Source: Phytohabitans houttuyneae
Lineage (GTDB): Bacteria; Actinomycetota; Actinomycetes; Mycobacteriales; Micromonosporaceae
Assembly: GCF_011764425.1 (NCBI RefSeq)
Contig: NZ_BLPF01000005.1
Location: 248,001 to 312,000 of the forward strand
Direction of reading: 5' to 3'
Length of the DNA: 64,000 nt
The position numbers and the translations under genes are program-made. Position 1 is the first letter of the stretch. Every line of letters begins with the position of its first letter. Of the stretch, positions 54,635 to 62,689 are shown piece after piece. A model generated the notes under the pieces. That model did not search any database, was not told the DNA's origin, and saw only the letters and a program-made list of their open reading frames with translations.

Positions 54635-56077
54635 TCAGCTGTTGCGCAGCAGCGGGTCCAGCGCGAGCGTCAGGTCGAACCGGGCCTCCTGGGCCACCGA
54701 CCGCTCGTTGAAGTCGTTGATCTGCTCCAGCAGGTCCGCGGCGGCGTCACGCAGGTCGTCCGGGTCGCCGCCGGCCAGGCTCTGCCGCAGGTCGTCGACG
54801 CCGTCGCGCAGGTCGTCCGCGGCGTTGTCGTCGATGCGGCCGTCGGCGATCGCGCGCTCCAGCGTCTGGTCGACCTGCGCGACAAGGTCGGCGGCGGAGG
54901 GGGTGGGCGGCGCGGTGGTCCGTGGCGGTGCGGCGGGTGCGGTGGTGCCGCGTGCCCCGCCGGCGGCGCCGGGGTCGCCGTCCGGCGCGAACGAGGCCAG
55001 CGCGGCCGCGGTCAGGCCGCCGGCCAGCAGCAGGCCCGTCATGATCATGAGGGTGGGGCGGACGCCGCGGCGCTGGCGCTCGACCCGGGCGCCGGAACCG
55101 CCGCGCGGTCCGGCCGGAAGCGGCCGCCCCACGGACGTGCGCGGGCCGGGCGGGGGAGCGGTGGGCATGGACGCGGCCGGCGCGACGCCACGCGTGTACC
55201 GGGTGGCCGGGCGGCGGGCGTCACTCGGGCGGGCGTCGGGCGGGCCGACCGGCGGGACGGCGGCGTCGAGCGTGTCGGCCACGTCCTGCGCGCGCGGGCG
55301 GCGGTCGGGGTCGCGGGACAGGCAGGCCAGCACCAGCGCGGCCACGCCCGAGGGCAGGCCGGGCACCGAGGGCGGCGCCACCGCGGGCGAACGCCGGTGC
55401 GCCTGCTCCGCCTCGTCCCAGGTCGCCACCGGCAGTGGCGGCCGGCCGGTGAGCGCCTCGTAGAGCAGCGCGCCCAGCGCGTACACGTCGTCGGCCGGGT
55501 CGGGCGGGCCGGCGTCGAGGCGTTCGGGCGCCGCGTACGCCGGGGTGCCGACAAGCCAGCCGCCGTCTCCCTCGGGACGGGCGCCGGCCAGCGCGGCGAT
55601 GCCGAAGTCGAGCACCTTGGCGCCGGTCTGGGTGAGCATCACGTTGCCAGGCTTGACGTCGCGGTGCACCACGCCCATCCGGTGCGCGGCGGCCAGCCCG
55701 CTGGCCACCTGCGCGGCGGTGCGGGCCGCCTCGGGCCAGGGGAGGGGGCCGGCGGCGAGCCGGTCGGCGAGGTTGCGGCCGTCGAGCAGCTCCATGACGA
55801 GGTACGGCACCACGCTGCCGTCGCTGAGTCGTTGCTCTCCGTAGTCGTAGATCTGGGTGACGTGCGGGTGGGTGAGCTTCGCCGTCGCCCGCGCCTCGCG
55901 CCACGTCGCGGCGAACAGGTCGGGCTCGTCATCGAGCGTGGCGGTGAGCGCCTTGACCGCCACCGGGCGGTCGAGCACCTGGTCAACGGCGAGCCAGACC
56001 TCGGACATCCCGCCGACGCCGATCTGTTCGACGATGGCGTACCGGTCGTGCAGGAGCAGCCCCGGGGCGAACGTCAT
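54635..56077 (-). CDS. Ser/Thr protein kinase (PknB-type), membrane-anchored
   Basis: This 480-residue kinase has an intact catalytic domain at 1-270: GVGGMSEVWLAVD, PVAVKALT, YLVMELLDGRNLA, GVVHRDVKPGNVML, KVLDFGIAAL and GTPAYAAPERL. A Pro/Arg-rich linker leads to one membrane segment (MIMTGLLLAGGLTAAALASF). Outside is a Thr/Pro-rich stalk and an Asp-rich helical domain (IADGRIDDNAADDLRDGVDD). No PASTA repeats are present, so it is not a lipid II sensor. It may sense ions, given the DDLRDG acidic repeats. It follows the phosphotransferase gene by 21 bases. Confidence 0.92.
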   Translation of the reverse strand: MTFAPGLLLHDRYAIVEQIGVGGMSEVWLAVDQVLDRPVAVKALTATLDDEPDLFAATWREARATAKLTHPHVTQIYDYGEQRLSDGSVVPYLVMELLDGRNLADRLAAGPLPWPEAARTAAQVASGLAAAHRMGVVHRDVKPGNVMLTQTGAKVLDFGIAALAGARPEGDGGWLVGTPAYAAPERLDAGPPDPADDVYALGALLYEALTGRPPLPVATWDEAEQAHRRSPAVAPPSVPGLPSGVAALVLACLSRDPDRRPRAQDVADTLDAAVPPVGPPDARPSDARRPATRYTRGVAPAASMPTAPPPGPRTSVGRPLPAGPRGGSGARVERQRRGVRPTLMIMTGLLLAGGLTAAALASFAPDGDPGAAGGARGTTAPAAPPRTTAPPTPSAADLVAQVDQTLERAIADGRIDDNAADDLRDGVDDLRQSLAGGDPDDLRDAAADLLEQINDFNERSVAQEARFDLTLALDPLLRNS

Positions 56078-56098
56078 GGCGACCAGTGTGGTCGATCC

Positions 56099-57073
56099 TC
56101 AGAGCAACGCCAACTGTGCGTCGATACGTTCCGCTAGCCAGGACTCGAACCTGACGCGCTCCTCGTCGTACCATCCACGGGTCGCGCCCTCGATCGCCAT
56201 GATGACGTAGAGGTACGTGCGGTACAGGTTGAGCCGCCGCAGCTCGCTCGCGCCGAGCTGCCTGCCGGCCAGTAGCTCCGGCTCCGGCTCGCGCAGCAGC
56301 GCCAACGAGACGAGCTCGGCCAGCGGGTCGCCGTAGAAGGCCCGCTCGCCGTCGATGAAGCCGGTGACCTCCCAGCCGTTGGGGCCCTGGGCGACGAAGA
56401 CGTTTCCGTCCCACAGGTCGAAGTGGACCAACGCGGGGCGGGTCACCTCATCGAGTGAATCGGCGTGGCGGCGCATCAGCGTGCCGATCCGCTCGGGCGG
56501 CGCCGGCAGCGGCTTGTCCAGCCGTGCGGCGTCGGCGAGCAGGTCGTCGACCATCGCGCCGAACGCGCCGCGCCAGGTCGGCTGCCAGCTGCGGCTGTCG
56601 CGCAGCGGGTAGCCGTACCGGCTGCCGGTGATCGTGTGCAGGCGGGCGGTGAGCCCGGCGACCTGGCCGCGCAGCGCGGCGATCTCGGCCGGCGGCAGGC
56701 TGTCCACAAGGGAGTGCAGGTCGGTGCCGGGCACCAGGGTGAGGAAGGCGAAGTCGGTGCCGAGCAGGTCGCGCTCGAAGCCGGGGTACACCACCTCGGG
56801 CACCGGCACGCCCACCGCAGCCGCCCGCTGGTAGAAGTCGACCTCCGTGCGCATCAGGTCGACCTCGTGGGTGAGCAGCTTGAGGTGGGGCGGTGGGGCC
56901 ACCTTGAGCACGAGCTCGCGCCCGCCGTCGAGGGTGACCGCGTAGACGGCGTTGTACGTACCGCCGTCCAGCTCGCGCCACCCGGTCACCCCGGCGTCCG
57001 CGCCGAAGGCGCGCGCCACGAGGCGGGCCAGCTCTTCTTCGCTGACCCGCCGCTTCGTCAGGCTGTCTCGCAC
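56099..57073 (-). CDS. Aminoglycoside-phosphotransferase-like small-molecule kinase
   Basis: This 324-residue enzyme has the APH fold: GGTYNAVYAVTLDG and ELVLKVAPPPHLK in the N-lobe, the catalytic loop VHFDLWDGNVFV with its Asp and Asn, and the metal loop VTGFIDGERAFYGDP. It phosphorylates a small hydroxyl-bearing compound. GTG 57073 immediately follows the GH1 stop (TGAGTG), so it is translated with the beta-glucosidase. A sugar substrate therefore seems more likely than an antibiotic, but this is inference. Length is typical. Confidence 0.85.
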   Translation of the reverse strand: MRDSLTKRRVSEEELARLVARAFGADAGVTGWRELDGGTYNAVYAVTLDGGRELVLKVAPPPHLKLLTHEVDLMRTEVDFYQRAAAVGVPVPEVVYPGFERDLLGTDFAFLTLVPGTDLHSLVDSLPPAEIAALRGQVAGLTARLHTITGSRYGYPLRDSRSWQPTWRGAFGAMVDDLLADAARLDKPLPAPPERIGTLMRRHADSLDEVTRPALVHFDLWDGNVFVAQGPNGWEVTGFIDGERAFYGDPLAELVSLALLREPEPELLAGRQLGASELRRLNLYRTYLYVIMAIEGATRGWYDEERVRFESWLAERIDAQLALL

Positions 57074-58513
57074 TCAGACAGTGTTGTCCGCGATCACGCG
57101 CTTGTACCAGAGGGCGCTGCGCTTGAGGAAGCGGCGCTGGGTGGCGTAGTCGACGTACACCAGGCCCCACCGCTCGTCGTAGCCCTGGTCCCACTCGAAG
57201 TTGTCCAAAAGGGACCACACGTGGTAGCTCTCCAGCGGCACGCCGTCGGCGATCGCGCGGTGCGCGGCGGCGAAGTGGTCGCGCAGGAAGGCGACCCGCT
57301 CCACGTCGTCGATGTCGTCCTCGGGACCGAGCACGTCCGGGCAGGGCAGGCCGTTTTCGGTGACGGTGAGCGGCACCGGGCCGTAGTCCCGGGTGACCCG
57401 GGTCAGGATGTCGTACATCCCGTCGGGGTAGATCTGCTGCCAGAACGCCTTCGTCGTCGCGTGCCGCTGCTCGGTGCCGCCGTCGGCGGTGACGTAGATC
57501 GGCGTGTAGTACTGCACGGCGAGCAGGTCGACCGGCGAGGAGATGACGGCCAGGTCGCCGTCGCGGATCGAGCGGACCAGCGGGCTGTCCGGGCCCTGGT
57601 CGGCCAGCACGTCCTCGGGGTAGTGGCCGCGCAGCGCGGAGTCGAGGTAGAGCCGGTTTTCGTACCCGTCGAAGAGGCGGGTGGCGGCGGCCGCGGCGGC
57701 CGAGTCGTCGGCGGGGTAGCAGGGGTGCAGGTTGAAGGCCGGGCCGATCCGCGAGGCGCTCCCGGTGGCGCGCAGCGCCTGCACGGCCAGGCCGTGGCCC
57801 AGCTGGAGGTGGTGGGCGACCTGGTAGGCCAGCGGCTTGTCGCGCTTGCCCGGGGCGTGGTGGCCGGTGATGTACCCGTTCTGCACGACGGTCTTGGGCT
57901 CGTTGATGGTCAGCCACACCGGCACCGAGTCGCCGAGAGCGGCGTACACGTGCTCGGTGTAGTCGGCGAACCGGTAGGCGGTGTCGCGCGACTCCCAGCC
58001 ACCCCGGTCCTGCAGCGCCTGCGGCGTGTCCCAGTGGTAAAGCGTGGCCATCGGCTCGATGCCCCGCTCCAGCAGCCCGTCGACGATGCGGCGGTAGAAG
58101 TCGAGGCCGCGCTGGTTGGGTGCGCCCGTGCCGTCGGCCTGCACGCGCGACCAGGAGATGGAGAAGCGGTACGACCGCAGCCCCAACCCGCGCATCAGGT
58201 CGAGGTCCTCGGGGTAGCGGTGGTAGTGGTCAACCGCGACGTCGCCGGTGTCGCCGTTCTTGGTGCAACCCGGCGTGTGGCTGAATGTGTCCCACACCGA
58301 CTCACCGCGGCCGTCGTCCTTCGCCGCCCCTTCGATCTGGTACGCCGACGTCGCGGCACCCCAACCGAAGCCATCCGGAAACGCCAGGCCGAGCGGAGCG
58401 TCAACCGCTGGGTCCCGGGACAGATCGTCGGGCTCGACGCCGTTGAGCAGGGCCGATCTGGCCGAGTCAGCGGTCGGGGTAGCGCCAGCGGTGGTCCTGG
58501 TCGGTACGGACAT
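57074..58513 (-). CDS. Beta-glucosidase (GH1)
   Basis: This 479-residue enzyme hydrolyses cellobiose and other beta-glucosides in the cytosol; no signal peptide is seen. The GH1 start block is FPDGFGWGAATSAYQIEGAA, the acid/base Glu is in WLTINEPKTVVQNGY, the nucleophile Glu in LTVTENGLPCPD, and SYHVWSLLDNFEWDQGYDER binds substrate. About 45 extra N-terminal residues precede the barrel. GAGGAGA is before ATG 58513. An exact CebR box stands 39 bases upstream. It heads an operon with the phosphotransferase and perhaps the Ser/Thr kinase. Confidence 0.94.
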   Translation of the reverse strand: MSVPTRTTAGATPTADSARSALLNGVEPDDLSRDPAVDAPLGLAFPDGFGWGAATSAYQIEGAAKDDGRGESVWDTFSHTPGCTKNGDTGDVAVDHYHRYPEDLDLMRGLGLRSYRFSISWSRVQADGTGAPNQRGLDFYRRIVDGLLERGIEPMATLYHWDTPQALQDRGGWESRDTAYRFADYTEHVYAALGDSVPVWLTINEPKTVVQNGYITGHHAPGKRDKPLAYQVAHHLQLGHGLAVQALRATGSASRIGPAFNLHPCYPADDSAAAAAATRLFDGYENRLYLDSALRGHYPEDVLADQGPDSPLVRSIRDGDLAVISSPVDLLAVQYYTPIYVTADGGTEQRHATTKAFWQQIYPDGMYDILTRVTRDYGPVPLTVTENGLPCPDVLGPEDDIDDVERVAFLRDHFAAAHRAIADGVPLESYHVWSLLDNFEWDQGYDERWGLVYVDYATQRRFLKRSALWYKRVIADNTV

Positions 58514-58551
58514 GTTCGGGTCTCCTCGGTGGTGGCCCATCCCCCTTGGTC

Positions 58552-58565
58552 TGGGAGCGCTCCCA
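58552..58565. promoter_or_regulatory. CebR operator before beta-glucosidase gene
   Basis: TGGGAGCGCTCCCA matches the established CebR (LacI-family) box of streptomycetes, which cellobiose or cello-oligosaccharide relieves. It is 39 bases before the GH1 ATG. Confidence 0.85.
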
Positions 58566-59030
58566 AGGCTAACCCGGATCGTGGCGGATGGAAATGGGGT
58601 GATCGGGTGGCGATGCGGCCGAGAGATCGTCCACATCACCCGGCCGGAGGCGATTGCGCCGGCTCGTGGGCCTGCGTCGGTCGCTTCGACCAGGTCCGTG
58701 CACGCGGACCGTCGTCGGATGCATGCAGCGTGTGTCGGCCTCCCGCTGGCGTGTCGGCGCCGAGCGCGTCGGGCGGAGGCGGGCAAAGGATGGAGCACAG
58801 GCGGGTCGGCGGAGCCGGTCCGCGCTGACCGGCCGGTGAGGTCGGTGCGACAGCCATCGGATTTGGTGCGCGACGGGCAGTGCGGTGAAGCGGTGGGTCC
58901 GTAGGGTCCGATGCCGTCGTCTGGGCTTCCAACTTGGCTGGCGCGCCCCGGGTGGGTCGCGCCAAAGCTGAAAGTTTCTCCTGAACCGGTCAACCGGTCG
59001 GGCGTGTGTTGCCTGACCCGACGACCGATT

Positions 59031-59058
59031 ACCCCATTTGGCGGTGGGGTTTATCTTC
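59031..59058 (+). terminator. Possible rho-independent terminator in GH1-GH48 spacer
   Basis: ACCCCA and TGGGGT form a six-base stem around an eight-base loop, followed by TTATCTTC. It would end plus-strand transcripts from the left. Confidence 0.4.
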
Positions 59059-59071
59059 TATCGGAGTGGGT

Positions 59072-59103
59072 GTGGGGACAGGGAGGGCAACCCCTGTCCC
59101 CAC
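59072..59103. other. Perfect 12-bp hairpin
   Basis: GTGGGGACAGGG pairs with CCCTGTCCCCAC around an eight-base loop. No gene end is near, so it is not an ordinary terminator. Confidence 0.7.
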
Positions 59104-59117
59104 CATCAGTTACACAC

Positions 59118-59147
59118 GCGCGAGAGGATCTTCCCTCCTCTTCGCGC
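59118..59147. other. Hairpin with one bulge
   Basis: GCGCGAGAGGA pairs with TCCTCTTCGCGC, one base bulged, loop of seven. It follows the previous hairpin after 14 bases. Confidence 0.65.
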
Positions 59148-59214
59148 ATGTCGCGCGGGAGCCGGGCCACGCGAGTGGCTCTGGTTCCACCTCCTCTCGA
59201 CCGGGGGGTGAGAC

Positions 59215-59249
59215 GCTGACGGCGGAGTCCGGGCTGGCCCGCCGTCAGC
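59215..59249. other. Perfect 11-bp hairpin
   Basis: GCTGACGGCGG pairs with CCGCCGTCAGC around a 13-base loop. With its neighbours it makes a structured cluster about 520 bases before the GH48 start. Confidence 0.65.
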
Positions 59250-59334
59250 TCTGCGGCTGAGCGGTTGTGGGTCCGCCGATGGTGCTGGCGGCTTCCCTGT
59301 AGTGTTGTCCCCCGCGTACTTGCATCGACATCAA

Positions 59335-59348
59335 TGGAAGCGCTCCCA
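59335..59348. promoter_or_regulatory. CebR-type box, distal to GH48
   Basis: TGGAAGCGCTCCCA has one difference from the CebR consensus. It lies 420 bases before the GH48 ATG. Confidence 0.75.
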
Positions 59349-59512
59349 TCGACGTTGGTTGGACTGTAGTACCCGTTACGGGTTTGTGAAAGACCCAAAA
59401 CAAGATCGAAACCCGTAGCGAACATCGATGAAACCCCGTGGTCCCGCTAGATCGGCAGGTCAGCGCCTGTTTGACCACACTGGAGCGAAACCGAAAACGC
59501 TCCCACTTGCTG

Positions 59513-59526
59513 CGGGAGCGCTCCCA
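59513..59526. promoter_or_regulatory. CebR-type box, proximal to GH48
   Basis: CGGGAGCGCTCCCA differs from the consensus at one end base and is framed by a wider CTTGC..GCAAG inversion. A half site AACGCTCCCAC stands just to its left (59497-59507). Confidence 0.78.
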
Positions 59527-59767
59527 TGCAAGACTGTCGACACATCGCGTGAGGGAGCCAAGACCGCGCGATCGCGGGCCGCCGAGGGCATCCGACTGTG
59601 GAAACCGGCGCCCAAATGTGAACGGGACGAGCCCTTGACTCGTCACCCGGTCCGGGACGGGCCCTGCCCACGACACCAAGCGCCTTCCGCCCTACGCGCC
59701 GCTTACCCCACCGCGTAGAAGGCGCCGCCGAGTTCACTCGGTCAGGTCCGCGAGGAGACACTCCACA

Positions 59768-62689
59768 ATGAAGCTCACCGCAAGTAAACGCCGGGTGGCG
59801 ATGATCGCCACCGGCGCATTGGTCGCGGGAGGGATGGTGGGCGTGCCGGTTGGCATGGCCTACGCCGCGACCGCCTGCGACGTGGTTTACACAACCAACG
59901 ACTGGAACACCGGGTTCACCGCCAGCGTGCAGATCCGCAACCTCGGTGACCCCCTGACCAGCTGGAACCTCGGCTTCACCTTCCCCGGCAACCAGCGCGT
60001 CACGCAGGGTTGGTCGGCAAACTGGACGCAGTCCGGCGCCAACGTCACCGCTACCAACATGCCGTGGAACGGAAACCTGGCCACCGGCGCAACGCTCGCG
60101 ATCGGCTTCAACGGCTCGTACTCGGGCACCAACGGCAAGCCGACCGCCTTCACGATCAACGGCACCAGGTGTGGTGGCGCGGTCAACCAGGCGCCCACCG
60201 TCGCGCTGACCAGCCCGGCCGCGAACGCTTCGTTCAACGCGCCGGCTACCGTCACGGTGTCCGCCAACGCCAGCGACGCCGACGGCTCGATCAGCAAGGT
60301 CGAGTTCTACCGCAACGGCTTGCTGATCAACGAGGACACCACCTCGCCGTACAGCTACCAGATGACCGGCCTGCCCGCCGGTGACTACACCGTCCAGGCG
60401 CGGGCGTACGACAACGGGAGCCCCACGCCGCTGACGGCGACCGCCGAGCGGTCCTTCACGGTCATCGGCACCGGCCAGGCGAGCATCGTCGTACCGGCCA
60501 CGCTCAGCATCGCCGAGGGCAGCAGCTCGCAGTTGAACGTGCGCCTCAGCGCCGCGCCGACCGCGAGCGTGCCCGTCACGCTGGCCAAGACCGGTGACGC
60601 GGACGTGACGCTCGGTTCGAGCAGCGTCACGCTGACCACGTCGAACTGGAGCACCGGCGTCAACGTGCCGGTGAACGCGGCGCACGACACGGATGCCAAC
60701 AACGACACCGCGACGATCACGGCCAGCGCGACGAACTACACCGCGGGCCAGACCGCCGTCACGGTGACCGACGACGAGAACACCACCAACCCGGGCCGGT
60801 ACGGCGAGGAGTTCCTCGAGCTGTACAACAAGATCAAGGCTCCGGCGAGCGGGTACTTCAGCCAGGAGGGCATCCCCTACCACTCGGTGGAGACGCTGCT
60901 CGTCGAGGCGCCCGACCACGGTCACGAGACCACGTCCGAGGCGTTCAGCTACTGGCTCTCGCTCGAGGCGATGTACGGCCGGGCCACCGGCAACTGGGCG
61001 CCGTTCAACAACGCCTGGAACGTCATGGATCGGTACATGATCCCGACCGAGACGCAGGGTGGCTACAACGCGAACGACCCGGCCGACTACGCGCCCGAGG
61101 CCAACCGCCCCGACCTGTACCCGCAGCAGGGTGGCAAGCTCGACTCCTCGATCAGCGTCGGCCAGGACCCGCTGTACAGCGAGCTGACCCAGACGTACGG
61201 CAACAACCGCATGTACGTCATGCACTGGCTGCTCGACGTGGACAACGTGTACGGCTTCGGCAAGTGCGGCGACCGCACCACGCGGCCGGCGTACATCAAC
61301 ACCTACCAGCGCGGCCCGCAGGAGGGTGTCTTCGAGACCGTCCCGCACCCGTCGTGCGAGACGTTCAACTTCGGTGGCCCGAGCGGCTTCCTGCCGATCT
61401 TCATCGGTGACTCCAGCTACACCCGCCAGTGGCGCTACACCAGCGCCCCCGACGCCGACGCGCGCGCCATCCAGGCCGCGTACTGGGCGCTGAAGTGGGC
61501 CAAGGAGCAGGGCAAGCAGGCGGACATCTCGGCCACCATCACCAAGGCCGCGCAGATGGGTGACTACCTGCGGTACGCCATGTACGACAAGTACTTCAAG
61601 AACCCTGGCTGCGCCTCGCCGTCCTGCGCCGCGGGCTCCGGCAAGAGCAGCGCGGCGTACCTGCTCTCCTGGTACTCCGCCTGGGGTGGCCCGCAGGGCA
61701 GCAGTGACTGGGCGTGGCGGATCGGTTCGAGCCACAACCACGGCGGCTACCAGAACCCGTTCGCGGCCTGGGCGCTGTCCAACACCACCGAGCTGATCCC
61801 GCGGTCGTCGAGCGCGCGGACCGACTGGTCCACCAGCCTCACCCGGCAGATCCAGTTCTACACCTGGCTGCAGTCGGCTGAGGGTGCCATCGCCGGCGGC
61901 GCGACCAACAGCTGGAACGGCGACTACAGCGCCCGCCCCTCCGGCCGCCCGACGTTCTACGGCATGGTGTACGACGACAAGCCCGTGTACCACGACCCGC
62001 CGTCGAACCAGTGGTTCGGCTTCCAGGCGTGGAGCATGGAGCGCGTCGCGGAGTACTACTACGAGACCGGCAACGCGCAGGCCAAGGCGCTGCTGGACAA
62101 GTGGGTCACGTGGGCCCTGGCCAACACGACGGTCAGTGGCGCCACGTACCAGGTGCCGTCGACGCTGAGCTGGACCGGGCAGCCCGGTGGCAACTGGACC
62201 AGCAGCACCACGTCGGTCAACAACAGCGGTCTGCACGTGTCCGTCGTGGACCACACGACCGACGTCGGCGTGACCGGCGCATTCGCCCGCACGCTGGTTT
62301 ACTACGGCGCGAAGGCGGGGCACACCCAGGCCCAGACCACGGCCAAGGGGCTGCTCGACGCGCTGCTGGGACACAAGGACACCAAGGGCATCGCGGTGAC
62401 CGAGACCCGGGCGGACTACAACCGGTTCGACGACACCTACAACAGCTCGACGGGCCAGGGCCTGTACATCCCGCCGGGCTTCTCGGGCACCATGCCCAAC
62501 GGTGACACGATCAACTCCAGCAGCAGCTTCATCAGCATCCGCTCGTTCCTGCGCAACGACCCGGAGTGGCCGAAGGTGGAGGCGTACCTCAACGGTGGGC
62601 CGGCTCCGACCTTCACGTACCACCGCTTCTGGGCGCAGGTCGATGTCGCGATGGCACTGTTCGACTACGACCGGCTGATCGGGGACTGA
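59768..62689 (+). CDS. GH48 reducing-end cellobiohydrolase with CBM2
   Basis: This 973-residue secreted cellulase has a Tat/Sec-type signal (KRRVAMIATGALVAGG, cut near AYA). A CBM2 (residues 35-145: CDVVYTTNDWNTGFTASVQI, with NWTQSGANVTATNMPWNGNL) binds cellulose. An Ig-like module (about 150-240, PTVALTSPAANASFNAPATV) and a Calx-beta-like module (245-345) follow. The GH48 domain starts EEFLELYNKIKAPASGYFSQ; its acid Glu is in HETTSEAFSYWLSLEAM. GH48 enzymes release cellobiose from chain reducing ends and act with GH9. A 1171-residue minus-strand ORF opposite it is a composition artefact. AGGAG lies nine bases before the ATG. Confidence 0.96.
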   Translation: MKLTASKRRVAMIATGALVAGGMVGVPVGMAYAATACDVVYTTNDWNTGFTASVQIRNLGDPLTSWNLGFTFPGNQRVTQGWSANWTQSGANVTATNMPWNGNLATGATLAIGFNGSYSGTNGKPTAFTINGTRCGGAVNQAPTVALTSPAANASFNAPATVTVSANASDADGSISKVEFYRNGLLINEDTTSPYSYQMTGLPAGDYTVQARAYDNGSPTPLTATAERSFTVIGTGQASIVVPATLSIAEGSSSQLNVRLSAAPTASVPVTLAKTGDADVTLGSSSVTLTTSNWSTGVNVPVNAAHDTDANNDTATITASATNYTAGQTAVTVTDDENTTNPGRYGEEFLELYNKIKAPASGYFSQEGIPYHSVETLLVEAPDHGHETTSEAFSYWLSLEAMYGRATGNWAPFNNAWNVMDRYMIPTETQGGYNANDPADYAPEANRPDLYPQQGGKLDSSISVGQDPLYSELTQTYGNNRMYVMHWLLDVDNVYGFGKCGDRTTRPAYINTYQRGPQEGVFETVPHPSCETFNFGGPSGFLPIFIGDSSYTRQWRYTSAPDADARAIQAAYWALKWAKEQGKQADISATITKAAQMGDYLRYAMYDKYFKNPGCASPSCAAGSGKSSAAYLLSWYSAWGGPQGSSDWAWRIGSSHNHGGYQNPFAAWALSNTTELIPRSSSARTDWSTSLTRQIQFYTWLQSAEGAIAGGATNSWNGDYSARPSGRPTFYGMVYDDKPVYHDPPSNQWFGFQAWSMERVAEYYYETGNAQAKALLDKWVTWALANTTVSGATYQVPSTLSWTGQPGGNWTSSTTSVNNSGLHVSVVDHTTDVGVTGAFARTLVYYGAKAGHTQAQTTAKGLLDALLGHKDTKGIAVTETRADYNRFDDTYNSSTGQGLYIPPGFSGTMPNGDTINSSSSFISIRSFLRNDPEWPKVEAYLNGGPAPTFTYHRFWAQVDVAMALFDYDRLIGD

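Follow-up and report, generated by a model that had tools for sequence, protein, structure and literature searches.

A probable CebR-controlled small RNA gene between the divergent GH48 and GH1 genes of Micromonosporaceae

The window analyzed here, i.e., the whole 64,000-nucleotide stretch of Phytohabitans houttuyneae DNA, carries a GH1 (beta-glucosidase family) gene on its minus strand (57074–58513; Pfam PF00232, E 5.9e-146), followed on that strand by APH-family phosphotransferase and Ser/Thr protein kinase genes (54635–57073), and a gene encoding a CBM2-Big_7-GH48 protein on its plus strand (59768–62689; Pfam PF02011, E 5e-295). The gap between the two glycoside hydrolase genes bears the hairpins that are the subject of this work, as well as what seems to be an RNA gene on the minus strand, co-directional with GH1 and divergent from GH48. 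Five hairpins are present where a previous sequence-only reading had placed them: a TGGCGCG/CGCGCCA stem (58939–58964), an ACCCCA/TGGGGT stem (59031–59050), a perfect 12-bp stem (59072–59103), an imperfect one (around 59114–59151) and a perfect 11-bp stem (59215–59249). The stretch encompassing them (58930–59260, 331 bases) folds far better than its dinucleotide shuffles, with z-scores of -5.3 and -6.6 for the plus and minus strands, respectively, and none of the 100 shuffles folding as well on either strand. Treating the five as a single region held for four of them (termed P6, P5, P4 and P2 below), which lie within a conserved unit, but not for the one at 58939–58964, which falls outside it: no DNA match in the five other genomes of the genus extends over that hairpin, the main matches there starting at 58977 or beyond (a single short match corresponds to 58890–58918), and, as judged by eye, it has no counterpart in the alignment of the downstream part. 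The same list was also incomplete, as it lacked the most conserved element of all (59158–59194, P3) and two weaker hairpins (59273–59291, P1, and 58994–59027, P7).

The sole promoter-like site that a scan found in 58500–59800 (one found vs. 0.1 expected) is located on the minus strand at 59363–59390, and consists of a -35 TTCACA, a 16-nt spacer and a -10 TACAGT. About 15 nt past this -10 lies a CebR-type (LacI-family) operator, GGGAGCGCTTCC (59336–59347, minus strand), while two further operators of this type, recognized by their sequence and given without a strand, are TGGGAGCGCTCCCA (58552–58565), about 40 nt ahead of the GH1 ATG, and GGGAGCGCTCCC (59514–59525) on the GH48 side. As the promoter, running from 59390 to 59363, is directed away from GH48, and the RNA would be read from the opposite strand, a GH48 leader is rejected; from the earlier proposal of a regulatory RNA or a long structured leader for cellulase expression, only the first half survives, and it is well backed by conservation, covariation and the conservation of both promoter and operator. 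A conserved block like GATGTTTCGATCTCGTTTTGGG is also seen just 5' of the -35 (approximately 59385–59420 of the window, minus strand), and an inverted repeat TCAC...GTGA within the promoter is kept in several genera; either might perhaps be an activator site.

The conservation of this arrangement was assessed using a covariance model (R1) with a hand-set structure, built from 32 of the 44 sequences left after one locus, L071, was excluded for its unrelated 5' half, and a set of 81 copies aligned to it, which were chosen among the fetched loci at a cut-off strict enough to exclude four weak opposite-strand matches (77 of the copies are distinct, a few loci having been fetched twice). Oriented along the minus strand, the unit reads TTTCACAAA ... 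TACAGT, followed by CGATGGGAGCGCTTCCATCG, a variable stretch and finally the structured core. A CebR-type operator, sought as GG(G/A)A(A/G)CGCT(T/C)CC within the first 60 nt of the model match or in the 330 nt preceding it, stands at the promoter in 79 of the 81 copies, as would be expected of a CebR regulon member, the CebR box being given as TGGGAGCGCTCCCA in the relevant part of the literature source (PMC4898821). The operator nearest to the core is GGGAGCGCTTCC in 73 of these 79 copies, GGAAGCGCTCCC in three and GGGAACGCTTCC in another three; 75 of the 79 have an exact TACAGT as their -10, and 15–16 nt separate the -10 from the operator core in 56. Both operator-less copies (L140 and L144) are decayed, one having a broken P5 and the other lacking the 5' half, and both come from genomes without GH48. 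While the operator of the RNA is mostly the asymmetric GGGAGCGCTTCC, those of GH1 and GH48 in the window and of the compact form described below are perfect palindromes, and the asymmetric version could, judging from its sequence, have a different affinity for the repressor.

Given the promoter position and the end of conservation, the RNA is predicted to occupy 58994–59356 of the minus strand (approximately 285–365 nt), starting at about 59356 and ending either past P5 (~59070) or past P7 (~58994); the distance from the predicted start to the P5 end in the model-aligned copies is 164–412 nt (median 269). In the direction of transcription, the predicted elements are: P1 (59273–59291), variable in sequence, with modest support from single-sequence folds inspected by eye; P2 (59215–59249, loop GGGCCAGCCCGGAC), with double changes in 10 of its 11 pairs; P3 (59158–59194, GGAGGUGGAACCAGAGCCACUCGCGUGGCCCGGCUCC), whose GGAG/CUCC pairs are invariant in all 77 distinct rows; P4 (59114–59151), with double changes in all 10 main-stem pairs; P5 (59072–59103), with a C-rich loop UUGCCCU, 98.9% of its cells paired and 6 of its 12 pairs showing double changes; P6 (59031–59050), conserved in position and showing one-sided changes only; and P7 (58994–59027), with mixed covariation (a score of 0.161 vs. 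0.094 in shuffles, and five double-change pairs vs. 5.1). P1 and the P6–P7 part fold modestly beyond shuffles across the 81 copies (mean z of -1.23 and -1.40, respectively, vs. -0.40 for a control stretch). P5 is a possible 3' end of the core and P7 a possible terminator, but neither has a clear run of U residues in the long form, and a scan of 58500–59800 found no terminator-like site on the minus strand, which leaves the termination of the long form uncertain.

The covariation analysis within Micromonosporaceae that the sequence-only reading had proposed was carried out and turned out positive. Among the 77 distinct rows, 95.5% of the paired cells can pair (vs. 90.2±0.2% in shuffles and 41–54% when the partners are slid), 30 of the 48 pairs show double changes (vs. 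12.8±1.8), and the covariation score is 0.165 (vs. 0.078±0.003), with none of 500 shuffles matching any of the three values, although all of these statistics lean upward, given the relatedness of the sequences and an alignment that was itself made to follow the structure. Six rows (L149, L150, L151, L154, L155 and L157) have their P2 misaligned, with the 5' part of the model lying over the operator; removing them leaves 30 double-change pairs (vs. 10.7±1.9 in shuffles), and removing the most divergent loci (L143–L161) leaves 19 (vs. 6.7±1.7), with the P2 share being 10 and 4 pairs, respectively. P3 is beyond the reach of such a test, as its pairs hardly vary. A MAFFT alignment with RNAalifold yielded a consensus comprising P2, P3 and P5, from which P4 is absent through gaps, whereas P4 and (by eye) the variable P1 appear in the single folds of most of 45 sequences. 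Wobble pairs alone do not fix the strand, as 144 G-U pairs, 76 of which are in P3, are to be set against 79 A-C ones. GC-rich DNA readily yields inverted repeats (35 pairs in 801 bases), from which one might suspect a DNA-level feature or mere chance hairpins; yet the pairs change in a compensatory manner, 202 of 354 genomes carry the element and the fold surpasses its shuffles, all of which speaks against it, and, unless the alignment is wrong, the covariation refutes this reading, which deserves next to no credence.

P3 remains near-invariant though its flanks vary, and it contains an SD-like heptamer, GGAGGUG, which is what could make one think of a small-peptide mRNA. A start codon 4–13 nt past GGAGG is, however, absent in all 80 copies examined, and no frame is open in all 81 copies, the best being open in 55 (a rough count, as frames were counted from the first base of the model and the lengths vary). 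Furthermore, the P3 block is near-invariant at all positions rather than at codon positions 1 and 2 alone, and the spacing between GGAGG and GGCUCC spans all three frames, with the difference between 31 and 35 being due to a doubled GGAGGGAGG only. A small-peptide mRNA is therefore disfavoured by the block invariance and by the start-codon and frame tests, to the point of being scarcely credible. At the sequence level, the unit has its own promoter, a structure upheld by compensatory changes and no sign of coding, as one would expect of an sRNA gene.

The same element invites another explanation, namely that the RNA might act by binding a protein or the ribosome, with the near-invariant P3 and its GGAGGUG capturing the 30S subunit or an RNA-binding protein, i.e., by sequestration. 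It would suit P3 being the most conserved element despite its variable flanks and an SD-like heptamer never followed by a start codon (80/80), as well as the corresponding P3 segment of one locus (L147), GGAGGUGAUCC, which we take to fit the 16S 3' tail. On the other hand, the 16S-matching extension is not conserved, and GGAG is predicted to be paired with CUCC within the same hairpin, so it may be simply structural; judged from the sequences, such a mode of action is rather unlikely, if still the most serious of the competitors.

A DNA search found the RNA in all six genomes of the genus and in 200 of the 354 genomes of Micromonosporaceae, while R1 (E 0.001) matched 202 of the 354, belonging to 21 of the 44 genera. 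It is a single-copy element, except in one genus (g25), whose seven genomes have two copies each, and a weak second match was seen in one genome (G341, E 0.0019) at a looser cut-off. In five of the seven g25 genomes, the second copy lies between genes for a TrkA protein and an FN3-CBM2 protein (neighbours were grouped as BLAST clusters, with Pfam run on one representative of each). All 41 matching genomes of an order-level sample (298 genomes, family members included) belong to Micromonosporaceae, as do both genomes that a broader model (R2) matched in a phylum-level sample of 296, bearing in mind that, whenever over 40 genomes were searched, the filters were set more stringently, at the cost of weak matches. 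An exact-pattern scan of named genomes returned 59 loci, all from Micromonospora, Plantactinospora and Phytohabitans, and the invariance of the core among them is partly due to selection, as they were picked by that core; the loci from the DNA-search and covariance-model genome sets were not chosen in this way. The RNA is probably also present in Actinoplanes and Salinispora.

GH48 (PF02011) is found in 302 of the 354 Micromonosporaceae genomes, and the usual site of the RNA is between the divergent GH48 and GH1: among the 81 loci, GH48 is divergent upstream in 66, GH1 is downstream in 66 and both are seen in 59, some loci being too short to show both flanks. Within the 160 genomes of the Micromonospora-type genus g24, inspected by eye, 139 have both the RNA and GH48, 16 have neither and five are discordant (Fisher p 2e-17, ignoring relatedness). 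Four of the discordant ones have the RNA only (G175, G248, G267 and G290) and one has GH48 only (G199, a weak match, E 1.1e-5); two of the four RNAs are decayed (L140 and L144) and two look intact (L133 and L134). At L133 (close to a contig end) and L134, short broken fragments of GH48 (its N-terminal part) are seen beside the intact-looking RNA and GH1. L144 and L071, judged to be from one genome (G248), have had the 5' half of the RNA and the promoter replaced by unrelated sequence, and GH48 was not found in G248. The association is not a strict one, as two genomes with a broken GH48 keep an intact-looking RNA, and most genomes of another genus, g4 (probably Actinoplanes), where GH48 is nearly always present, lack the long-form RNA, R1 having a single weak match there (G035, E 1.5e-4).

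Shorter relatives seem to exist in g4. Searching 40 family genomes that have GH48 and no good R1 match (20 of them g4) with R2, the seed of which includes the G035 match, gave 10 matches at E 0.1, not all of them convincing, and three of these (L185, L187 and L188) were excluded as compact copies for want of an operator. When 75 genomes (67 of them g4) were screened with a sequence pattern, 20 places in 16 genomes were hit, as opposed to one for the reversed control; ten of the hits were judged true by eye and the rest were left uncounted. Together with two copies detected by the covariance model only (L184 and L189), this gives a minimum of 12 among the 67 g4 genomes with a probable compact relative. 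The compact copies are approximately 150 nt long, have their perfect operator close to the start, and share GGAG(G) ... GG(C/T)TCC as well as a hairpin rich in GC, which in most copies has a GCCCUCC-type loop; the -10 is TTACAGT in 4 of 11 aligned copies and varies in the rest. The gene on the 5' side is an AA10 LPMO-CBM2 gene in the two loci scanned (L194 and L201), and the gene ends are similar in most others; at L195, the compact form lies between two peptidase genes. A stricter version of the pattern found nothing in 183 genomes of a class sample; as the window genome was among them, that version is by construction blind to the long form. The compact relatives and the long form likely constitute one family, and, as this kinship depends on weak scores and shared parts, it is put no higher than likely.

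These relatives bear on whether the RNA might instead be a cis-acting structured 5' leader (an attenuator or stability element) of GH1, or of FN3-CBM2 in the case of the second copies. GH1 is on the same strand and downstream in 66 of the 81 loci, so read-through is possible; the second copies do precede an FN3-CBM2 gene, the minus strand has no terminator-like site by scan, and 11 of the 66 loci show no operator between the RNA and GH1. Such an operator does separate the two in the other 55, though, the sequence from P7 to the GH1 operator is not conserved (by eye), and the gene 3' of the compact form, according to ORF calls for 11 loci, is convergent in seven, where the compact form can be no leader (it is co-directional in three and uncalled in one). 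A leader is thus the less likely option when compared with an independent RNA, and we regard it as improbable.

Conservation, structure, operator and promoter sequences, and gene context are the basis of the conclusion that the gap probably harbours a new intergenic minus-strand gene for a standalone, trans-acting sRNA, repressed by CebR and induced by cello-oligosaccharides. According to this model, whose transcription, repression, induction and action in trans are all deduced from sequence, a CebR/CelR-type LacI-family repressor would bind the operator just past the -10 and keep the RNA off until cello-oligosaccharides lift the repression, whereupon the RNA would be made along with the cellulases. 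The product, approximately 285–365 nt here and 150 nt in the compact relatives, would carry the conserved P3 module (GGAGGUG ... CCACUCGCGUGGCCCGGCUCC) and the GC-rich P5 hairpin, the loop of which is (U/C)UGCCCU in 77 of the 81 copies by our own count. It might then pair in trans with mRNAs via the UUGCCCU loop of P5 or the SD-like segment of P3; the P5 sequence UGCCCUCC could, for instance, mask GGAGGGCA ribosome-binding sites, and cellulose sensing would thereby be coupled to the translation or stability of other genes. Pairing is the part of the model proposed more tentatively, as a mechanism that is quite conceivable. The mycobacterial B11 offers a parallel, as either of its two C-rich loops is enough to repress a target via the 5' UTR, according to the portion of PMC10470900 drawn upon here. 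The P5-loop pattern occurs near start codons at 63 sites genome-wide (vs. 30 for the reversed control), too many for targets to be named.

It may even be, and this is again a tentative suggestion, that a CebR-controlled sRNA belongs family-wide to the standard equipment of the cellulose-utilisation regulon and acts through a C-rich terminal loop together with an SD-like module from which translation never begins, so that the sensing of cellobiose would both induce cellulases and reprogram the translation of other genes. If true, this would add a post-transcriptional arm beside CebR, the transcription factor through which actinobacterial cellulose regulation is described in the consulted part of PMC4898821. 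It would also provide a tractable sRNA in a soil- and plant-associated family, with the covariance model and the approximately 150-nt compact relative already at hand for direct testing.

Regarding known families, Rfam 15 had no matches at the gathering cut-off either in the window or in nine related loci, and the four matches obtained in the gap under permissive settings (E 0.49–3.7) fell far short of their cut-offs, so no known Rfam family was matched; no description of the RNA was found among open-licence PMC papers either. The missing Rfam match does not exclude Ms1, the RNA polymerase core-binding RNA, as Rfam is stated to detect Ms1 only near mycobacteria (PMC9130861, in the part used), and the locus could thus be imagined to hold a diverged member. 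That same part of PMC9130861 lists an Ms1 homologue for Phytohabitans and other Micromonosporaceae, and its flank rule, an HAD hydrolase (or synonyms) paired with an oxidoreductase or glycoside hydrolase, includes both glycoside hydrolase and beta-glucosidase among its phrases. The glycoside hydrolase flank here fits one such phrase, but the HAD-hydrolase partner is not adjoining, the flanks being GH48 and GH1 in 59 of the 81 loci; the Micromonosporaceae genera listed in that part (PMC9130861) do not include Micromonospora and Plantactinospora, where our RNA is common; and the 6S-like long hairpin described for Ms1 contrasts with a row of separate hairpins, P2, P4 and P5 among them with covariation. 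Judged from these descriptions, its being an Ms1 member seems very improbable.

The probable CebR-controlled sRNA may also be compared with other bacterial sRNAs and the CebR regulon. The 6C sRNA consists of two hairpins with C-rich loops. The RNA described here has a single C-rich loop, UUGCCCU, within another architecture, no Rfam match in the window and the nine loci, and a CebR-type operator. It shares with the mycobacterial 6C/B11 C-rich-loop sRNAs the actinobacterial origin and a C-rich loop suited to G-rich ribosome-binding regions (PMC10470900, in the part cited), and would work like them at most by analogy. As for the CebR/CelR regulon, GGGAGCGCTTCC is one base off the core of the CebR box TGGGAGCGCTCCCA and adjoins cellulase genes, and the members named in the section of PMC4898821 referred to are CAZy and toxin genes, with no RNA among them. 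Compared with that box, the operators of the RNA are mostly a constant asymmetric variant (73/79). Spot 42 and SgrS of enterobacteria are sRNA genes under carbon-source control. The likeness to them lies in an sRNA being placed under such control, while the lineage and the regulator differ. Taken together, the RNA would represent a new family of a known kind, the bacterial sRNA, the novelty of which resides in its combination of regulon and module.
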